IMG/VR virus record: IMGVR_UViG_3300027954_000002
Span: 1-27,382 of that record
Origin: a virus
Reading direction: 5' to 3' (one strand)
Length of the DNA stretch: 27,382 bases
In this document: positions 4,134 through 20,862 of the stretch, piece by piece
Numbering within the stretch: the stretch's first letter is position 1
Layout of the letters: the number at the start of each line of letters is the position of its first letter
Notes under the pieces: model-generated
What the model was told of the DNA's origin: nothing
The model's database searches: none
Seen by the model: the letters and a program-made list of their open reading frames with translations, nothing else
Position numbers and translations under genes: made by a program

Positions 4134-5836
4134 CAGTCGTTGTAGCCCATACGACCAGGGCTGTAGGCACAATACTAACCGCCGCTATTTATAATTTTGA
4201 TCATAATATCCATGTTCAGAATGCGCTCGCGCTTGAGTCATTGTTCAATTCCAATAGTGGCACATTCAAGACCACACAGAGCCGTTGGGTTCCTGTTCAC
4301 GACATGCATCGCCAGGTAGCGGCAACTAACCCTCCACTAAACTTGGCTGACATGACGGGCAACCTGCCCACTATACTCAACTCAGCCGACTATGACACAA
4401 CGACGGAGGAATATCTCTACTTCTGGATTACTCTTGACCATAGCTGGGACCTGGGCCAGCTTAAGTTTCAACTTGTGTGGTCGCATCCGGCTACCACGAC
4501 CAACTTTGGCATCCATTACAATTTGTATGCACTGGCCTTTCCGGACAACAGTGCGCTGAATGCTAATGCTGGTTCGCCTGGGGCAGTTAGCGACACGGGC
4601 GGGACGACGAACAATAACTATATCACGCCCCTTAGTGCCTTCTTCACTGTAACAGGCTCCCTGGCTGCTGATGTTCCTATCCTATTCCGGCTAAACCGCG
4701 TGCCGGGCAACGCAAACGATACCCTAGCAGTTGATGCACGAGTGTTAGGCGTTATTATACAGTTTAATGCAGATGTACCGTCTGGGCCAACCGGGCCGAC
4801 CGGGCCTCGCGCACGACCTGTGCTGATGGAAGGCCAAAAGGGCGAAGACGGCGAAGTTGGGCCGCTTGTGCCGGGTCGGCGAGGGCTGCCTGGCGCTACT
4901 GGTCCGAGCGGTCCCAAGGGCCGTACACTGTCCGGCGTACAGGGCGACGAAGGCGACATTGGCGATAGGGGGCCGCCTGGTCGGATTGGCGTAGCTGGCC
5001 CGCAAGGTCCGCTTGGTCCCAGGGGCAAAGCCTTGCCAGGCTTCACTGGTCCTGAGGGCGACGAAGGCCCGATTGGACCGCAGGGCAAGCGCGGTCCTCT
5101 TGGCCCCACTGGCTCGCAAGGCCCAGCAGGGGCTCGGCGCACAGTAATTCAGGCGGCTGAAGATGGCGATGAAGGTCCGCGCGGCGTGCCTGGTAAGCGC
5201 GGCGCTGACGGCGTAGCGGGAGCTACGGGCCCCAGAAGCCGAGCACTATTTGGTGCTGAGGGCGAGCAAGGTGACAGCGGCGATATTGGGCCGCGCGGAC
5301 TTCGCGGATTGACCGGACCGGTCGGCTCAACCGGTGCGCAAGGACCGGCTGGCGCTAAGAGGGCCTTTCTGCTCTCTGGCAACGATGGCGATGATGGCGA
5401 GCGCGGGCCGCCAGGACGGCGCGGTGCAACTGGAGCGGCGGGCGGCGGCGGTGGTAGCGTAGCTACCGGCCAGACGACTGTCAACTTCGGCTCTCTGCCG
5501 GGCAAAACTGACGCCAGTGCTACGATCACTGGGCAAGCTTCTATACTCGGCACTTCGATTGTGAGCGCATGGGTCTATCCGGTCGCGACGGCAGACCATT
5601 CGATTGACGAGCACCTGCTAGAGATGCTTCGCGTGTACGCCCATACGATAGTAGCCGGAACTGGCTTTACAATAACGGCCTTGTATGATGACACGCGGAT
5701 ATTTCGTCAGGAACCGATTTCTACTTACACAAGCGTCGCCCTTAGCCGTGATAGACTTGGCGGCGCTATAAAAGACGTGCATAATGCAGGTCTTATGACA
5801 TACGGTCTTTGGAATGTGGCTTGGCAGTGGGTGTAA
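4130..5836 (+). CDS. Collagen-like tail fibre protein
   Basis: A 568-residue fibre starting at TTG, in a TTGA overlap with the previous stop and with an SD-like AGAGAGG before it. Residues 1-40 carry the pattern HTTRAxGTxLTAAIYNxDH, shared with the second fibre at 7265-8212, so this is probably the virion anchor. Residues about 40-215 form a beta-rich domain. Residues about 219-442 are Gly-X-Y triplets with six interruptions, a trimeric collagen-like shaft. After a Gly-rich hinge, residues 443-568 form a C-terminal domain ending YGLWNVAWQWV, the likely receptor-binding or trimerising head. Collagen-like fibres are known in many phages. Confidence 0.85.
   Translation: MTVVVAHTTRAVGTILTAAIYNFDHNIHVQNALALESLFNSNSGTFKTTQSRWVPVHDMHRQVAATNPPLNLADMTGNLPTILNSADYDTTTEEYLYFWITLDHSWDLGQLKFQLVWSHPATTTNFGIHYNLYALAFPDNSALNANAGSPGAVSDTGGTTNNNYITPLSAFFTVTGSLAADVPILFRLNRVPGNANDTLAVDARVLGVIIQFNADVPSGPTGPTGPRARPVLMEGQKGEDGEVGPLVPGRRGLPGATGPSGPKGRTLSGVQGDEGDIGDRGPPGRIGVAGPQGPLGPRGKALPGFTGPEGDEGPIGPQGKRGPLGPTGSQGPAGARRTVIQAAEDGDEGPRGVPGKRGADGVAGATGPRSRALFGAEGEQGDSGDIGPRGLRGLTGPVGSTGAQGPAGAKRAFLLSGNDGDDGERGPPGRRGATGAAGGGGGSVATGQTTVNFGSLPGKTDASATITGQASILGTSIVSAWVYPVATADHSIDEHLLEMLRVYAHTIVAGTGFTITALYDDTRIFRQEPISTYTSVALSRDRLGGAIKDVHNAGLMTYGLWNVAWQWV
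4784..5455 (+). repeat. Collagen-type Gly-X-Y repeat with periodic interruptions
   Basis: Gly-X-Y triplets run through residues 219-442 of the fibre. The triplet register is broken at residues 227, 265, 300, 336, 369 and 410, each time by a basic start (RAR, RT, KA, RR, SR, KR), a short hydrophobic run and then an acidic Gly-rich segment such as DGDEG. Spacings are 38, 35, 36, 33 and 41 residues. The DNA is not a perfect repeat: codons differ from unit to unit, so the pattern is kept at the protein level. Confidence 0.8.
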
Positions 5837-14804: not shown

Positions 14805-15256
14805 CACGCTTTAAGATGATCTAGGGCCTTCATCTTTAAGTAATTGTCTCGACCAAGGCGCCATATACCGCCATTCTGGTTGATGACCTTCATCACGCTT
14901 GGCGTGAAGTATTTTCGTGCTATGGCTTCAATCCTACGTCGCTCAGCAGGACCGTAATTTGGTAAGCTCGGTGTATGTGTCCAAAGCTCACCGCCTTTGA
15001 TTGCGCAGGCATTGGGCAATCTCATGTAGAACATGCAGGCTGAGATGCACTGGCCCGCAATACGTACTTGGATTTCACGCGCGCGCAGGATAGCCGCGTT
15101 TCGCTCAAAGCGGTAAATGTCTCCACCAAGGTCTTTCATGATGATGACAGTCTTGGTATCCGGCTTTAAGTACTCCTCAATATTATAGTTATCCCCATCA
15201 CTGATGGTAACTGTTCCAGCGATTGCAATCGCTGCAACAAGTGTAGCTATTCCCAT
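14801..15256 (-). CDS. Secreted ClpP-like (COG3904-type) protein
   Basis: A 151-residue protein with a hydrophobic signal-like N-terminus (MGIATLVAAIAIAGTVTI). Then GG at residues 44-45 in DLGGDIYRF, a CISAC motif with Ser72, and H94 in LWTHTP. The order of Gly-Gly, C-x-SAC and a following His is typical of ClpP-fold periplasmic proteins (COG3904 group), where the Ser and His are catalytic. Four cysteines may form disulfides. Its ATG overlaps the polymerase palm gene by ten bases with AAAGG upstream, so it is the last gene of the leftward operon. Target unknown; host-envelope processing or lysis is a guess. Confidence 0.55.
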   Translation of the reverse strand: MGIATLVAAIAIAGTVTISDGDNYNIEEYLKPDTKTVIIMKDLGGDIYRFERNAAILRAREIQVRIAGQCISACMFYMRLPNACAIKGGELWTHTPSLPNYGPAERRRIEAIARKYFTPSVMKVINQNGGIWRLGRDNYLKMKALDHLKAC

Positions 15257-16071
15257 GGTGGTATACCTTTCATATTGCCCCAGTTGGGGCCGCCCTTCAC
15301 ATCAACGCCCAACGTGAACTTGCGCCCTTTTGCCTCCAACTCCACTGTCATGTAGCCCTTCATCAGTTTGATGAACTCGCGCAGGCGATCTAAGGGCTTT
15401 TCAGGATAATCTAGCAAGATTGAATCGTGAACGGGCGCAAGCAAGAACATCGGTTTGGCCAGCTCAGAGTAATCCCGATAGATCGCTATCAATGCGCGGC
15501 GAATAATGTCAGCCACTGTGCTTTGTGGATTGTACGCTGTAATAGCATTCCATAGGTCCGGCCCAGGCTTGTCAAGTAGCCGCACGCCTTTGCCAAGCAA
15601 GTTCCAAATGAAGCGCTTGTTTTCACGAAACTCCTTCTGCAAGTCCTTGCGCCACTGCGGCAAGCTTGGGTAGGCTACTGTATTGTACAGCTCAATCATT
15701 CTGATGGCGTCAGGCTCGCTAATCTCATTCACGAGCGCGAAGGTGCGATACTTAACGTTGTAGTTCATGCCATGGTTCGACTTCTTGCCCATCTGGCGCA
15801 CGGTCATATTGCGGGGCAGGAACCTAGCAAACAGATCAAATATCTCGGGTACGTGCTCCCTGCGCAGCTCACGGATCGTGTCGGGATCGGTCGCGCTTTG
15901 TAGGTATTTTTGCTCCGCCTCAATGATATCTTTTGGCAGCCCTGTCATCAAAGCGGCTGTATTGACGTGTGGTGATTCGCCAGATTCTACGACCTTAATC
16001 ATGTTTTCGTCGCCCGATAGGTAGGCTACAATCACCCACTCCGCGCCGGCTAGGTCGAATTCCAGCAGCAT
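15247..16071 (-). CDS. polA: Family A DNA polymerase, palm/fingers part (C-terminal half)
   Basis: A 274-residue protein that holds only the catalytic core. Motif A is D6-LAGA-E11 (catalytic Asp and the steric-gate Glu), motif B is R92-x3-K96-x7-Y104, motif C is H215-D216-S217. Spacing in motif B matches Taq (R659, K663, Y671), but Taq F667 is replaced by H100 and the Glu of HDE by S217. There is no thumb, exonuclease or glycosylase part; those are encoded at 19204-20862. The ATG lies just before motif A and has GGA upstream. Alone it would lack primer-template grip, so it should need the other half. Confidence 0.85.
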   Translation of the reverse strand: MLLEFDLAGAEWVIVAYLSGDENMIKVVESGESPHVNTAALMTGLPKDIIEAEQKYLQSATDPDTIRELRREHVPEIFDLFARFLPRNMTVRQMGKKSNHGMNYNVKYRTFALVNEISEPDAIRMIELYNTVAYPSLPQWRKDLQKEFRENKRFIWNLLGKGVRLLDKPGPDLWNAITAYNPQSTVADIIRRALIAIYRDYSELAKPMFLLAPVHDSILLDYPEKPLDRLREFIKLMKGYMTVELEAKGRKFTLGVDVKGGPNWGNMKGIPPWE

Positions 16072-16189
16072 TCTCGCGTTCCTTTTTGACTTTGCGCCAA
16101 GCTCTGCGGCGCGCGTTGATCTTGTCTTTGTTAAGCTCGACCCAGCGCTTCAGGTATTCCTTGCGAACCTCAGGAAGCTTGTGCGGCAT
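15995..16189 (-). CDS. Short basic protein resembling an HNH-endonuclease leader
   Basis: A 64-residue, strongly basic protein. The segment EYLKRWVELNKDKINARRR resembles the N-terminal helical repeats seen before the HNH core in phage HNH/endonuclease VII-like proteins, but no HNH His/Asn or zinc cysteines follow. Its last 77 bases overlap the polymerase palm gene in another frame, and its message carries that gene's SD. It may be a remnant of a homing endonuclease that helped break the polymerase gene, or simply a small DNA-binding protein. SD is weak. Confidence 0.4.
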   Translation of the reverse strand: MPHKLPEVRKEYLKRWVELNKDKINARRRAWRKVKKERENAAGIRPSRRGVGDCSLPIGRRKHD

Positions 16190-16194
16190 AGCTG

Positions 16195-16401
16195 CTATCC
16201 ATGATCGCTGGCCTTCACGAAGTATTCAGTTTCGCTGCCATCAGGATGCAGCACTATATGCTTGCACAACGTGCAGCCATTACTTTGCGCCTCAACAGCA
16301 TCACAGCCCGAAAGGGCGCATATTGGCTTACCAGCGCAGACCACAATCTCATCAAGATTGCCAGGATTATTTATCTGGCGCGCTCTTTCCCAGGCGTCCA
16401 T
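16195..16401 (-). CDS. Small Cys-rich protein (68 aa)
   Basis: From the ATG at 16401 (AGGGA eight bases upstream) the protein is 68 residues; an ATG at 16446 would add 15 but has poorer SD spacing. Five cysteines (VVCAGKPICALSGC, CTLC) suggest metal binding. It overlaps the upstream zinc-finger gene by 35 bases. No family recognised; it belongs to the run of small genes between the polymerase halves. Confidence 0.5.
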   Translation of the reverse strand: MDAWERARQINNPGNLDEIVVCAGKPICALSGCDAVEAQSNGCTLCKHIVLHPDGSETEYFVKASDHG

Positions 16402-16615
16402 AAACGTTTTCCCTATAGAGACGTAGGTCCTCTTCACGACTATCATTCCAAATCCAGCGCATCACCATTTCGTTAAGCTCTACATCGCACTTTGCACAAA
16501 GTGGGCGAAAGACATTCCCATCAGAACACATTTGCCATTGGTAAGTGGCGCGCTCCCCACAGCGCACACACTTCTTCCGACGAACACCAATCTCTGTGTA
16601 GGGCTTGCGCCTCAT
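16367..16615 (-). CDS. Zinc-finger-like phage protein (82 aa)
   Basis: Two CxxC pairs (CVRC and CAKC) frame QMCSDGNVFRPLC, and the C-terminal half is a charged helix (ELNEMVMRWIWND). The pattern CxxC - W-x-x-C-x-DGN-x-x-RPLC-x-x-C-D-x-x-LN is one I associate with small conserved phage proteins near nucleotide-metabolism genes. It overlaps the MazG-like gene upstream by four bases, so it is probably coexpressed. Likely binds one zinc; partner unknown. Confidence 0.6.
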   Translation of the reverse strand: MRRKPYTEIGVRRKKCVRCGERATYQWQMCSDGNVFRPLCAKCDVELNEMVMRWIWNDSREEDLRLYRENVYGRLGKSAPDK

Positions 16616-16968
16616 AGCTTATACTGACTGCCAAGCTCCTCCGACTTGCGGTTGAAAACTCGAATGACTGCCTCTTCGAGCGTAAAGCCTTGGGAGGCTG
16701 CTAATAGGTCCAAGTAAACCAGCGTGTCGCCGATCTCATCTTGCAGCTTTTCAGCAAGTTCCTGGGGGCCTTCCTTGTTACCTCGAATCCCATCACGAAA
16801 GCGGTTAAGCTTCTTGGCAATATTGGCCGCCTCGCCCAGCTCGCCTAAGGTAGCAACCATCCAATCAGATAAACTCCAGTCATGTATTGGATGCCCAAAG
16901 CCTTTTGGGGATTTGCATCGCTGGGTATTGATGTGGCGCAGACGTGCGAATGTTAGAGGCTCGGTCAT
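16612..16968 (-). CDS. MazG-like NTP pyrophosphohydrolase
   Basis: A 118-residue protein from ATG 16968, chosen because AGGAGA lies just upstream; the longer reading from 16995 lacks an SD. Metal-binding acidic residues appear as GELGEAANIAKK and, one helix later, LQDEIGDTLVYLD, matching the E-x-x-E ... E-x-x-D layout of all-alpha MazG-type enzymes that hydrolyse nucleoside triphosphates to monophosphates. Its position beside ThyX suggests a role in dNTP balance, for example lowering dUTP or supplying dUMP. Substrate is not readable from sequence. Confidence 0.75.
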   Translation of the reverse strand: MTEPLTFARLRHINTQRCKSPKGFGHPIHDWSLSDWMVATLGELGEAANIAKKLNRFRDGIRGNKEGPQELAEKLQDEIGDTLVYLDLLAASQGFTLEEAVIRVFNRKSEELGSQYKL

Positions 16969-16969
16969 G

Positions 16970-17353
16970 CTACTTCTCCTTAGGTGTGCAAACACCCTTT
17001 AGGCGTACAGCCCATCTATTGAACTGAACCCTAAAAAGGTTGAATGCATCTTGATAGTTCATTGTTGTATCAAGGAAGGGCACCTCAGAGAGCACCTTCA
17101 GCACCTCCATAGTGAGTGCGTTGGTTTTTTTGTAACTTGCTATATTGAAGCCATAAACCTTGATGCGCATGCCCCTAACATGATATTGATTGATTGGTTC
17201 AGTATCTGTGGTTAGCTGACCACTAAACTTCTGCGCTACTTGCTCATCGTCCCAGCCTTCTTTGTAGGCTTTGCGGTCCGGCGTCAGGGCATGCTCTTCC
17301 ATGAAGCGGCTAAGTTGGATGGTTTCTAGTACCGAAAGTACGCGCTTCGTCAT
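16970..17353 (-). CDS. Hypothetical protein, possible HTH-type DNA-binding
   Basis: A 127-residue protein with AAGGTG eight bases before the ATG. The segment YKEGWDDEQVAQKF followed by INQYHVRGMRIKVYG resembles helix-turn-helix repeats in small phage DNA-binding proteins, though the match is loose. The C-terminal half is helical with many aromatics. It ends one base before the MazG-like gene's start. Function not assigned with confidence. Confidence 0.5.
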   Translation of the reverse strand: MTKRVLSVLETIQLSRFMEEHALTPDRKAYKEGWDDEQVAQKFSGQLTTDTEPINQYHVRGMRIKVYGFNIASYKKTNALTMEVLKVLSEVPFLDTTMNYQDAFNLFRVQFNRWAVRLKGVCTPKEK

Positions 17354-17370
17354 TTGCAGGCACCTTTGCG

Positions 17371-18033
17371 TTAGTCTATAAAGAAATCCAGTGCGGCTCC
17401 CGACACTATAGGAAACAGCTTCGCAAACAGCTTGCGCAGTAACTTGGCTACTTGCCTGTGCTCAAGCTGTACGTCATCGCCTGTACGAGACTTTAGGTAG
17501 TGTATCCAGTTTCTCAGCGTCCCGTTCACGTATAGTCTTGTGGGCGTCATGCCTTCGGGCAGCACGGCGCGGGAGACTTCGTAAGCTATGCCCTTCTCAT
17601 GGGCATAGGTTGTAGCGTCTTCGACTGCCGCAATGACGGCTAGTTGCTTATCCAGCCAGCCATCAGATATCTTTGTATCAAGGCAATCAATAGAGAGCTG
17701 TCGATTAGTAGGGTGACGCATGCGAGCCTTGCGCCGTACAAGCTTGCCCAGCTTCTCGCTCGGCGCGTAGCGTTGGCTAAACTCCTGAAAATGGTTATCA
17801 TGACGAAGGAGCTGTCTCCCTATGTCGCGAGTTGTATCTATGGCTGCGCACCAGTTTGCCATTTCGAAGGGCGACCAGTGCTCCTTTTTGATCATGTAGC
17901 GCAGCAGCTTAATATCGCCACTATCCTGCTTGTCAGGGTTACTGACCCGCGCCATAAACATGATGTGTTGCTCAGCCTCAGGTGTGGCCCAGACGGACCA
18001 CACCGAGTTGAAGAGCCAAGGTTTCTCCAGCAC
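17371..18033 (-). CDS. thyX: Flavin-dependent thymidylate synthase ThyX, variant motif
   Basis: A 220-residue protein that should methylate dUMP to dTMP using FAD. It starts at GTG, sharing one base with the previous stop (TAGTG). N-terminal ATPEAEQHIMFMARVSNP is typical of ThyX. The signature region reads RHDNHFQEFSQRY (residues 77-89): the E-x-S-x-R part is intact (E84, S86, R88), but the usual RHR is RHD and the loop is one residue shorter than in the RHR-x7-S consensus. Later MTPTRLYVNGTLRNW also fits. Activity is likely but the variant is worth testing. Cotranscribed with MazG-like and lysis genes. Confidence 0.85.
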   Translation of the reverse strand: MLEKPWLFNSVWSVWATPEAEQHIMFMARVSNPDKQDSGDIKLLRYMIKKEHWSPFEMANWCAAIDTTRDIGRQLLRHDNHFQEFSQRYAPSEKLGKLVRRKARMRHPTNRQLSIDCLDTKISDGWLDKQLAVIAAVEDATTYAHEKGIAYEVSRAVLPEGMTPTRLYVNGTLRNWIHYLKSRTGDDVQLEHRQVAKLLRKLFAKLFPIVSGAALDFFID

Positions 18034-18197
18034 TAAGGTTTAACAGGCTCAACCAGCGCTGGCGCTGGCGTAGGTGAAACCGGCTGTTCAATGACGACGG
18101 GCGTTGGTGTTGGTGCTGGTTTCTTGCCCGAGTTATAGAACGTCAGGAACGCAATCAAGGCTACTGCCCCCGCGCCCAAGATAAAGATTAGAGGCAT
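18033..18197 (-). CDS. Small membrane protein with Pro-rich tail (54 aa), lysis candidate
   Basis: Translated directly from the sequence: MPLIFILGAGAVALIAFLTF is one transmembrane helix, followed by a Pro-rich tail of PTPTP and PTPAPA type. AGGAG lies eight bases before the ATG and overlaps the endolysin stop. It directly follows the endolysin gene and overlaps ThyX by one base. The layout (inner-membrane anchor and extended Pro-rich stalk) suits a spanin-like or holin-related role, but it has no Cys lipobox and the assignment is positional. Confidence 0.55.
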   Translation of the reverse strand: MPLIFILGAGAVALIAFLTFYNSGKKPAPTPTPVVIEQPVSPTPAPALVEPVKP

Positions 18198-18208
18198 ACG
18201 TTATACTC

Positions 18209-18952
18209 CTAGAGCCTCGCAAACTGGTAATGCATCCAATCGAAGTCCGCATCACGGCCGAGGCTTACCGCGCCGGTTTCTTCGATAATCTCCCAATACT
18301 TCAGATACTCAGGATCGGACATCCTGGCATGCATATGGAACTTGCCATCGCTGCTTGTGTAAGGAGCTTTCCTTGTTGAGTGCAGGTCGTTACGCACCGG
18401 GTCGATGTCTACAGCTATGCCCCAGGCATGCATAGACCACGCGGAGCCCCCGCGCATCTTGCGGACGTTCAGGCAGCCGCCGTAAAGGTCCAAGCCCAGG
18501 TCAGTTCTTGATACCTTGTCATAAGCCTTCATCACTTCTGAAAAGATGTGCTCGATTGGCTCGCGCACCTTCATATGGCATGAAAACTTATTAACCGTTT
18601 GCGATTTGCTCCAGGCTATGCGCATCGGAAATGGCAGGGTGGCCATGGTTTGGTTAGAGCCGACCGCGCCATAAAACGGCTCACAGTTAGCCTGCGTGGG
18701 CCACTTACTGCTTGGATGAGTCACGGGTGCAGGCGTAGCAATCCGCATATCGTCGCGGTCGATGGGCAAGCCTGCTGACGTTGGCCATAGCGCTGCCTTG
18801 GTCTTCGGACCTACTACGCCATCAACCTTCAGATTGTTGATACGCTGGAAGGCGCGAACGGCGACCTTAAAATCGTTTGCGCTGGTCTGCCAAATTCCCA
18901 GCTCCCGTAAGCGCTCGGATATTTCGGCGATTTCCTTGTCAGACAGTGCCAT
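18209..18952 (-). CDS. Endolysin: PG-binding domain plus M15-type peptidase
   Basis: A 246-residue protein; ATG 18952 is chosen for GGGAGA five bases upstream. Residues about 5-57 form a peptidoglycan-binding domain (AVRAFQRINNLKVDG, then VVGPKTKAALW). The catalytic part carries SMHAWGIAVDID with H175 and D182, and DWMHYQF with H240, the three zinc ligands of M15 D-Ala-D-Ala/L-Ala-D-Glu peptidases. No signal peptide, so it needs a holin to reach the cell wall. It is flanked by a 26-residue and a 54-residue membrane protein, forming a lysis cassette on the strand opposite the virion genes. Confidence 0.85.
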   Translation of the reverse strand: MALSDKEIAEISERLRELGIWQTSANDFKVAVRAFQRINNLKVDGVVGPKTKAALWPTSAGLPIDRDDMRIATPAPVTHPSSKWPTQANCEPFYGAVGSNQTMATLPFPMRIAWSKSQTVNKFSCHMKVREPIEHIFSEVMKAYDKVSRTDLGLDLYGGCLNVRKMRGGSAWSMHAWGIAVDIDPVRNDLHSTRKAPYTSSDGKFHMHARMSDPEYLKYWEIIEETGAVSLGRDADFDWMHYQFARL

Positions 18953-18953
18953 G

Positions 18954-19034
18954 TTAATCTCCCAATAACGCGAACAAGAGCATAAGCACAATAAGCGTCA
19001 GTGCTCCCATCATCATCCATTCAATTGGGGTCAT
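18954..19034 (-). CDS. Tiny membrane protein (26 aa), holin candidate
   Basis: Translated directly: MTPIEWMMMG, then a hydrophobic run (ALTLIVLMLLFALLGD) that can span the membrane once. AGGAG precedes the ATG, which overlaps the previous stop as ATGA; the stop lies one base before the endolysin ATG. Both signals make it a real gene despite its size. A single-span peptide directly before an endolysin is a good holin or pinholin candidate, though 26 residues is very short for known holins. Confidence 0.65.
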   Translation of the reverse strand: MTPIEWMMMGALTLIVLMLLFALLGD

Positions 19035-19207
19035 TCCAAATCTCCTGAAGCGTGAATGCACCCCGCAACAAACTTTTGTCTGTTGAACCTAGGATAGTGC
19101 ATTGAGAAGTGCGTTGCCAACTTAAAGATTAGGTTAGTACGTTGGTCAGCATCCATCCTAGTGCTTGCTATTGCCTCGGCAATAGCTTCAAAATCGGGCT
19201 TAGTCAT
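19031..19207 (-). CDS. Small conserved-type phage protein (58 aa)
   Basis: Starts at the ATG overlapping the stop of the polymerase N-half (ATGA at 19207-19204); its SD AGGAGG lies inside that gene's last codons. The segments MTKPDFEAIAEAI and YPRFNRQKFVAGC match a short pattern (DFEAIA... NPRFDR-x-x-F-x-x-AC) I recognise from small proteins in many phages and bacteria. No function is known for them. It is coupled on its other side to the 26-residue membrane gene. Confidence 0.65.
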   Translation of the reverse strand: MTKPDFEAIAEAIASTRMDADQRTNLIFKLATHFSMHYPRFNRQKFVAGCIHASGDLE

Positions 19208-20862
19208 CGGTCCTCCTGCACGATAAAGCGCTTGAAGCGCGGGTCTACGTTTTGAAGGTTCATCCCCGTGCCAGCGATCGTCTTGCTGCTGCTGAAACGC
19301 CGGGTCCATGTACCGATAGTATTCCACGAACATCGTAATCTTCCATCGCTATCGAACTCAACTTCCATGTACGTCGATTTTAGCTTCTTCTTATTGCGAA
19401 TGTCCTGGACGTACTTGGCTTCTGGCAGGCCAGTCTTACGATAAATGCGAGAAAGCGCCATGTCGTCGGTCGTGATATTTCCTGTCTTATGGTTAATGTA
19501 GGGCTTGATTTTCTTCAGGCCATAAAAATATTCCGCACATTGCTTCGTGCTATTCGGATTGAATTTCTTCTCTGAGCAGGCGTCTAGTTCAGCTTCCAAC
19601 TGCTCAATCTCATTATTCAGGTCATAGTTTGCTGCGGTGATCTCGTCTCGCGAGACGTGCAACCCAAGCGCAGTCATAAACAATATTGGCGCCATTGTGT
19701 CAATGGCTTCTTGATACTGCGGCCAAAAGCCAACCTGTTTCAGCTCCTCTTCGATAGGATACCAACATTCCAGCGCAACGCAGCCGTCTTTACCATTGTA
19801 GCGCCAAAATACTCGGTAGTCATCAGTCTTGTCCCCCGTCGCATCGCCGATGGTTTTCCACAGCTTTCCTTCGTCCTTCCAGAACGGCTCGCGAGTATAG
19901 ATACTTCCTAGAAAGCCCAAGTCCTTTGGAAATTCGGGATAGAGCATCCCATAACCAATCATTGTGTCGCCAATGGGCCCCCTGGTCATTACACTGGCTT
20001 TGAGTAGTAAGAATGGCGCATCGAAGCCTACGAGGTTCTGATTTACCTTCATGATCTCGCGGTCGTACATGGTACGGGCGTATTCGAGCCATATAAGCTT
20101 CTCCTCCTCAAGGGACCAATAATCGCCTGCGTCGTCCACGAACGGCACGACGAGCCCTTTGCTTGGGCTCGTGCAAAGGCAAAAACACGAGACTTGCTGG
20201 TTGACGCCTTCGAGATCGGTGGCAACTACACCTTCACTTCGTACCAACGCAAAAGCATCCATCACTTCGTCAAACGTAGGCTCGATCAGGATGTCACGCT
20301 GTGGCAGGAGTAAAACACGCGCTACGGACTCATCAAGGGCCTTTTTCAGATCGTTGATAATGAGGTATTTCCATATATACTGTCCATGAATGACAGCCGC
20401 AGGATGTACCGTGGCAATTACCTTGCGCTCATAGGTATCGCTCCATAGGATGGAGCCACGCCATTTCATGATCTCTTTGTGCTTGCCGGTCACAAGCTCA
20501 AGGGCTTGCTGACCGAGCGCAAGGATTACGTTCGCGCCAGACTCACGAATGCGCTTCATGGCCGGCATTGCAAGTTCACGGCCCAGGTCCGTAAGCCGGT
20601 TGCCCCAGAGTAAGGGGCCGCCATCAAATTGGTAAATCTTACCCGTTCGCCTGTCTGTGTAGACTGGCTCTTCCCAAAGGTTCACAACGTAGCAGGATCG
20701 CCGCGCGAGGCCGACCTTAGCCAAGCACTCATTGAAAATCGTTCCGGCTGGGCCAACTAGCGGTTCGCCTTGTCGGACTTCCATAAAACTGGGTGCTTGA
20801 CCGAGGATCAGGATACGGCTCTCAGGATCACCTGCGGTATGCTGACTTTTAGGAAACGTCAT
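19204..20862 (-). CDS. polA: UDG-like domain + 3'-5' exonuclease + N-terminal half of family A DNA polymerase
   Basis: A 552-residue protein. Residues about 15-175 are UDG superfamily (family 4-like): GQAPS at 21-25, GEPLVGPAG near 32-40, HPA at 153-155; the usual GEAPG Glu is Gln and the Fe-S cysteines are not seen. Residues about 205-365 form the proofreading exonuclease: D216/E218 (ATDLEG), N284 with D291 (VNQNLVGFD), Y355/D359 (YNGKD). The rest is thumb and first fingers part, with RRFSSS at 521-526 and NLQN at 535-538. It stops at FIVQEDR, just where Pol I motif A should begin; motif A continues at 16071. Confidence 0.85.
   Translation of the reverse strand: MTFPKSQHTAGDPESRILILGQAPSFMEVRQGEPLVGPAGTIFNECLAKVGLARRSCYVVNLWEEPVYTDRRTGKIYQFDGGPLLWGNRLTDLGRELAMPAMKRIRESGANVILALGQQALELVTGKHKEIMKWRGSILWSDTYERKVIATVHPAAVIHGQYIWKYLIINDLKKALDESVARVLLLPQRDILIEPTFDEVMDAFALVRSEGVVATDLEGVNQQVSCFCLCTSPSKGLVVPFVDDAGDYWSLEEEKLIWLEYARTMYDREIMKVNQNLVGFDAPFLLLKASVMTRGPIGDTMIGYGMLYPEFPKDLGFLGSIYTREPFWKDEGKLWKTIGDATGDKTDDYRVFWRYNGKDGCVALECWYPIEEELKQVGFWPQYQEAIDTMAPILFMTALGLHVSRDEITAANYDLNNEIEQLEAELDACSEKKFNPNSTKQCAEYFYGLKKIKPYINHKTGNITTDDMALSRIYRKTGLPEAKYVQDIRNKKKLKSTYMEVEFDSDGRLRCSWNTIGTWTRRFSSSKTIAGTGMNLQNVDPRFKRFIVQEDR

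Follow-up and report, generated by a model that had tools for sequence, protein, structure and literature searches.

The window analysed here comprises 27,382 nucleotides of viral DNA (IMG/VR record IMGVR_UViG_3300027954_000002, positions 1 to 27,382) and carries a family A DNA polymerase (PolA) in two separate open reading frames (ORFs) on the minus strand. The first ORF (19204..20862; 552 amino acids), hereafter the N-half, contains a family-4-like uracil-DNA glycosylase (UDG) domain at residues 1 to about 183, followed by a 3'-5' exonuclease, the thumb and the first palm strand. The second ORF (15247..16071; 274 amino acids), the C-half, extends from motif A to the C-terminus and comprises palm and fingers. 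Between them lies a 3132-bp block of about ten unrelated ORFs, also on the minus strand (16072..19203). Pfam assigned UDG (PF03167, E 8e-14) and the first third of DNA_pol_A (profile positions 3-133) to the N-half and the remainder of DNA_pol_A (205-380, plus 149-206) to the C-half, and the domain with motifs A, B and C is complete only when both ORFs are taken together. UDG and exonuclease are fused in the window to the first part of the polymerase only, the palm and fingers standing on a chain of their own.

The N-half terminates in NLQNVDPRFKRFIVQEDR (..FIVQEDR), its TGA stop overlapping the following ATG, and the C-half, which begins MLLEFD and reads MLLEFDLAGAEW, has an ATG start with an AAGGA-like ribosome site upstream. 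The two ORFs are interrupted between the NLQN signature and the motif A Asp, the arrangement by which a split PolA is defined here. When FIVQEDR and MLLEFD are joined, the distance from the Phe to the motif A Asp is 13 residues, as in E. coli (FIAPEDYVIVSAD), and it is 13-14 residues in unsplit relatives (e.g., FRRFLVADDDYVIYELDLEQAD at the homologous turn); the Pol I spacing is thus restored with zero residues lost. AlphaFold2 models of the N-half and C-half had pLDDT scores of 92.5 and 96.4, respectively, the latter folding confidently alone as palm plus fingers. Compared with the Klenow fragment (1kfs_A), the N-half model covers residues 324..698 (Z 20.6, root-mean-square deviation (rmsd) 3.5 over 342 residues) and the C-half model residues 700..928 (Z 20.4, rmsd 2.2 over 220 residues), which places the cut at the turn E697-D698-Y699 ahead of the motif A strand. 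In these models, the separately predicted halves together span the whole Klenow fold, and the break is the beta-turn preceding the motif A strand, equivalent to E697-Y699 of E. coli Pol I. An initial annotation, made from the sequence alone, had put the split exactly at motif A and has to be corrected on this point. Its coordinates, sequences and strand for both halves (FIVQEDR / MLLEFD), its 13-residue distance with none lost, and its intervening stretch of about 3.1 kb with ten genes agree with our results.

The same split was found in other viral genomes. The nearest relative, a 48-kb contig, is split at the identical residue, with 79% and 87% amino acid identity in the N-half and C-half, a gap of 3.4 kb, and a GTG start of the C-half after AGGAG. 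A profile search of IMG/VR with the N-half yielded 80 loci; among these, all loci of at least 42% identity with both ends present are split at the window's site, and all loci of 38% identity or less are single ORFs, so that the unsplit homologs for which the initial annotation had advised a search do exist as UDG-exonuclease-polymerase fusions. Searching with the C-half gave about 60 further loci, and a search of genome contigs gave one more, on a contig binned with a Bacteroidetes metagenome-assembled genome. After removal of near-duplicates, the sequences split at the motif A turn represent 31 distinct uncultivated-phage lineages in a single clade (FastTree SH support 99; SH-aLRT 99 under an IQ-TREE mixture model, with one state change). 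N-halves of the clade mostly end right after F(I/L)(V/I)xx, and C-halves begin a few residues upstream of the motif A Asp, at a correctly placed ATG, GTG or TTG. That the 48-kb relative and 31 lineages share one split is far beyond chance. The clade sits among unsplit UDG-exonuclease-polymerase fusions, its nearest neighbors being two unsplit loci, L047 and L171, and a second clade in which the split separates exonuclease from polymerase; L147 and L165, tallied as 'U' in the 125-row tree, are actually fragments of loci of this latter type and were omitted from the 53-row tree. One clade with one state change indicates a single ancient event passed to divergent phages; judged by sequence comparison, the split is old and shared and no fresh event in the window genome. 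A seeming terminal duplication of the N-half in L004, L005 and L008 was found to be end overlap of near-circular contigs with strain variation and no pair of genes.

The exonuclease motifs (D216/E218, D281 and Y355/D359), the NxQ of the N-half, and polymerase residues D705, E710, R754, K758, Y766, H881 and D882 (E. coli numbering) are invariant across the aligned split relatives, in keeping with the complete exonuclease motifs and the motifs A, B and C described initially. Between the window and the 48-kb relative, the proportion of synonymous differences (pS) is 0.71 for the N-half and 0.76 for the C-half, near saturation, and that of nonsynonymous differences (pN) is 0.14 and 0.10; this combination points to purifying selection on both halves while apart. 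The two halves constitute the only recognisable DNA polymerase in the window. Among 18 clade virus records, of which eleven measure 40-48 kb, PF00476 matched the two halves only, and no match to PolB (PF00136) or PolIII alpha (PF07733) was obtained; the separate full polymerase that the initial annotation had named as counterevidence is absent from these records.

The N-half UDG domain has the fold and the HP motif of a family 4 enzyme: its model superposes on the family 4/UdgX-type UDG 1vk2 (Z 21.2, rmsd 2.2 over 164 residues), and His153-Pro154 is invariant. The N-terminal CxxC is absent, so the [4Fe-4S] cluster of family 4 may be missing. At position 762 (E. coli numbering; C-half residue 100), the clade and its aligned unsplit relatives carry His throughout, a position usually occupied by Phe, Tyr or Leu in phage PolA, and motif C reads HDS instead of HDE across the clade.

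It is very probable that the two ORFs encode two chains of one family A DNA polymerase that assemble without a covalent link. There is good support for the original suggestion that one enzyme is rebuilt from two polypeptides: by sequence and model, the split is inherited by the whole clade, both halves with their catalytic residues are kept by selection, and their complementary folds fit Klenow end to end, with no other polymerase found. The isolated phages MEP401, MEP402 and QDWS535, which by their sequences use a split PolA, add support from viable isolates. Certain points weigh on the other side: synonymous saturation renders dN/dS imprecise, the window of only 27 kb surveys its own genome incompletely, and, since no homing endonuclease was found in the window's clade, the origin of the split rests on analogy. 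A division of labor, in which the N-half would act in repair as a UDG-exonuclease and the C-half as a stand-alone minimal polymerase, would agree with the confident C-half model and with the separation of UDG-exonuclease from a whole polymerase domain in other lineages. However, the N-half still includes the thumb and the first strand of the palm, right up to the break itself, together with the invariant NxQ. From the established structure of Pol I, a thumbless C-half would be expected to grip DNA poorly, which makes this arrangement improbable.

Reunion of the halves, either through removal of the intervening DNA by a group I/II intron or trans-splicing or through a split intein that joins the chains, is somewhat less probable still. 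Group I introns do occur in phage polA genes, an intron was suspected by the authors who described MEP401 (PMC10580990), and the record of Vibrio phage ICP2 is annotated as a two-piece join. Nevertheless, no Rfam intron or RNA element was detected in the window, nine relatives or six reference-phage loci, a search that divergent introns could escape. The gap is unconserved in length (0-3.4 kb) yet carries conserved genes, the C-halves have their own start codons, and the ORFs of locus L170 and phage QDWS535 overlap, leaving nothing to remove; the loss of intervening DNA that had been raised at the outset as a counterargument is improbable. The chain ends abut the homologous turn without extra sequence, and in most lineages the halves end and start within a few residues of it, leaving no room for intein halves. 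The interruption itself might suggest a dying pseudogene in two pieces, but clade-wide conservation, purifying selection, invariant catalytic residues in both halves, and near-complete genomes without a replacement polymerase make this very improbable. An assembly artefact, conceivable for a metagenomic contig, is the least credible explanation, given that dozens of independent assemblies, as well as isolated phages, show the identical split.

In the two-chain polymerase that we favor, chain 1 would contribute the UDG, exonuclease, thumb and first palm strand, and chain 2 the remainder of the palm, including the motif A strand, together with the fingers. The chains would be made separately and dock in a Klenow-like manner, thereby restoring palm sheet and active site, comparable to the split nrdA (PMC2988022); the docked chains may form the replicase of the window phage. 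The split may have originated from one ancient break at the turn, via gene insertion or a frameshift onto an internal start, and become fixed because the hairpin tolerates a break. Insertion of a homing endonuclease into the conserved polA core, followed by its loss, is plausible by analogy with ICP2, and L170 lends similar plausibility to a frameshift onto a start codon within the gene. HNH (PF01844) and HNH_3 (PF13392) are absent from the window and the 18 clade virus records. In L170, a basal member of the clade, the two ORFs overlap by 20 bases (4992-5011) in different frames with no insert, an overlap that could be either an intermediate-like split or a sequencing indel. Genes would later have accumulated between the halves, namely small genes in one subclade and nucleotide-metabolism and lysis genes in that of the window.

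The gap genes of the window all lie on the minus strand. The N-half is followed by a 58-amino-acid ORF (19031..19207) whose start overlaps the N-half stop (ATGA), an endolysin with peptidoglycan-binding and M15 peptidase domains (18209..18952; phrog_17001, E 3e-72), a 54-amino-acid ORF with a hydrophobic N-terminus (18033..18197), and a ThyX thymidylate synthase (17371..18033; PF02511, E 1.7e-29). Further along are a 127-amino-acid protein (16970..17353) and an 82-amino-acid ORF with Cys pairs (16367..16615), both kept in the 48-kb relative, together with a MazG-like pyrophosphohydrolase (16612..16995; phrog_229, E 1.7e-5, Pfam score below cut-off) and an 83-amino-acid ORF (16195..16446). A basic ORF of 64 amino acids (15995..16189) overlaps the C-half start in another frame and bears a weak resemblance to the N-termini of phage HNH proteins (phrog_7091 HNH, E 0.11, not significant). 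L031 (5422-5730) has a similar short, very basic ORF at the break, faintly resembling an HNH N-terminus, again without significance.

Gap length across the clade varies between zero, where the ORFs overlap, and 3.4 kb. One set of members has gaps of mostly 161-528 bp that hold one or two small genes, which often overlap both halves via start and stop codons; a DUF3987-type primase follows directly, as it does in several unsplit relatives. In the window's subclade, the halves lie 0.4-3.4 kb apart; MazG-like genes and endolysins of the M15 or GH25 type occupy this interval, joined in some cases by ThyX, and the stretch searched downstream contains no primase. Because the inserts vary while the split is constant, they are not needed for the split. 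ThyX lies within the polA gap in L029, L174, L004 and the window, L174 being a separate split, which suggests convergent placement of nucleotide-metabolism genes in polA gaps. In L004 (2890-3700), an AT-richer gene of 182 amino acids without a Pfam match stands directly before the C-half, flanked on both sides by degenerate repeat families of about 27 nt (AGTATAG/TTAGCG units); it is absent from the window. A co-conversion tract at the L004 C-half start was considered from the GC content of the first 20 codons (0.42 versus 0.60 in the window), a weak signal that was not relied on.

Textbooks and biotechnology know family A polymerases as single chains. A phage clade that keeps its apparently only polymerase as two chains, cut inside the palm a few residues from a catalytic Asp and at a site also cut in unrelated cultured phages, offers naturally tested designs for split polymerases and makes the origin and persistence of genes in pieces directly testable. 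For annotation, such halves are easily mistaken for defective polymerases or introns.

Split PolA was reported in 2023 for the isolated OM43 phages MEP401 and MEP402 (Zobellviridae), with the break site left unanalysed (PMC10580990). Translation of the MEP401 ORFs showed that gp13 ends LFLSRYGE* and gp15 starts MILNADAKALEW (MILNAD..). The break in this viable isolated phage thus matches that of the window to the residue. Its halves are separated by a small unrelated ORF, whereas the window's gap spans 3.1 kb with about ten genes; MEP401 and MEP402 also lack the UDG domain and belong to a different PolA lineage. In Alcaligenes phage QDWS535, the two ORFs meet as TAATG at the same turn, and its break, too, falls on the residue seen in the window. 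The halves are also separate in the Manatee Spring phages MW202796 and MW202697; a 3.6-kb gene block lies between them in the former and an R67-type DHFR gene in the latter. ICP2 (HQ641345) resembles the window in being split between NLQN and motif A, but its break lies about 15-20 residues further upstream and the UDG domain is absent; its halves (..NLQNISN* / MSDIKRC..) flank an HNH-like gene (Pfam E 0.008, below cut-off), and in ICP2_2013_A_Haiti (NC_024791) the same halves are only 9 bases apart. The HNH-like ORF (L191:2958-3467) and the corresponding Haiti site (L187:3653-3661) offer a natural comparison of presence and absence for the study of gene splitting. Additional splits occur nearby in L009 and L174. 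The view that such a break is unusual thus holds only in part, since split PolA has been published (PMC10580990) and also exists in ICP2, QDWS535 and other lineages, although the passages searched in two earlier PolA surveys (PMC11348598, PMC6302109) do not discuss it. Most clearly new are the inheritance of the split by a whole clade, the exact placement of the break in the turn before motif A, and the recurrence in a separate PolA lineage; the window polymerase represents a widespread new form of split phage replicase and no new category. More tentatively, the pre-motif-A turn might be a recurrent natural break point of family A that has independently yielded obligate two-chain replicases on several occasions; the window's lineage would then be a stable ancient class whose supply may be regulated through gap genes, a gap product possibly being a partner subunit.

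A second recurrent split, between UDG-exonuclease and a whole polymerase domain, was observed in Kuura (L012) and about 27 sequences, mostly of one clade (L119, L122, L130, L131, L137-L146, L149, L151, L153-L155, L157-L160, L162-L164, L168, L169 and L172). UDG-exonuclease-PolA fusions are known from phage PaBG and its relatives (PMC7412058); these and the unsplit L045-L105 share the window's domain order but form one unbroken gene, a single chain that the window polymerase lacks, and in L046 and others a DUF3987-type primase lies immediately downstream of it. Among T4-like phages, precedents are the split family B polymerase 43A/43B of Aeromonas phages and the nrdA gene of Aeh1 split by mobE, for which function was demonstrated and the insert is a homing endonuclease (PMC2988022). 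These systems concern other enzyme families, and the window's clade has no detected endonuclease, but they resemble the proposed polymerase in that two polypeptides rebuild one enzyme.

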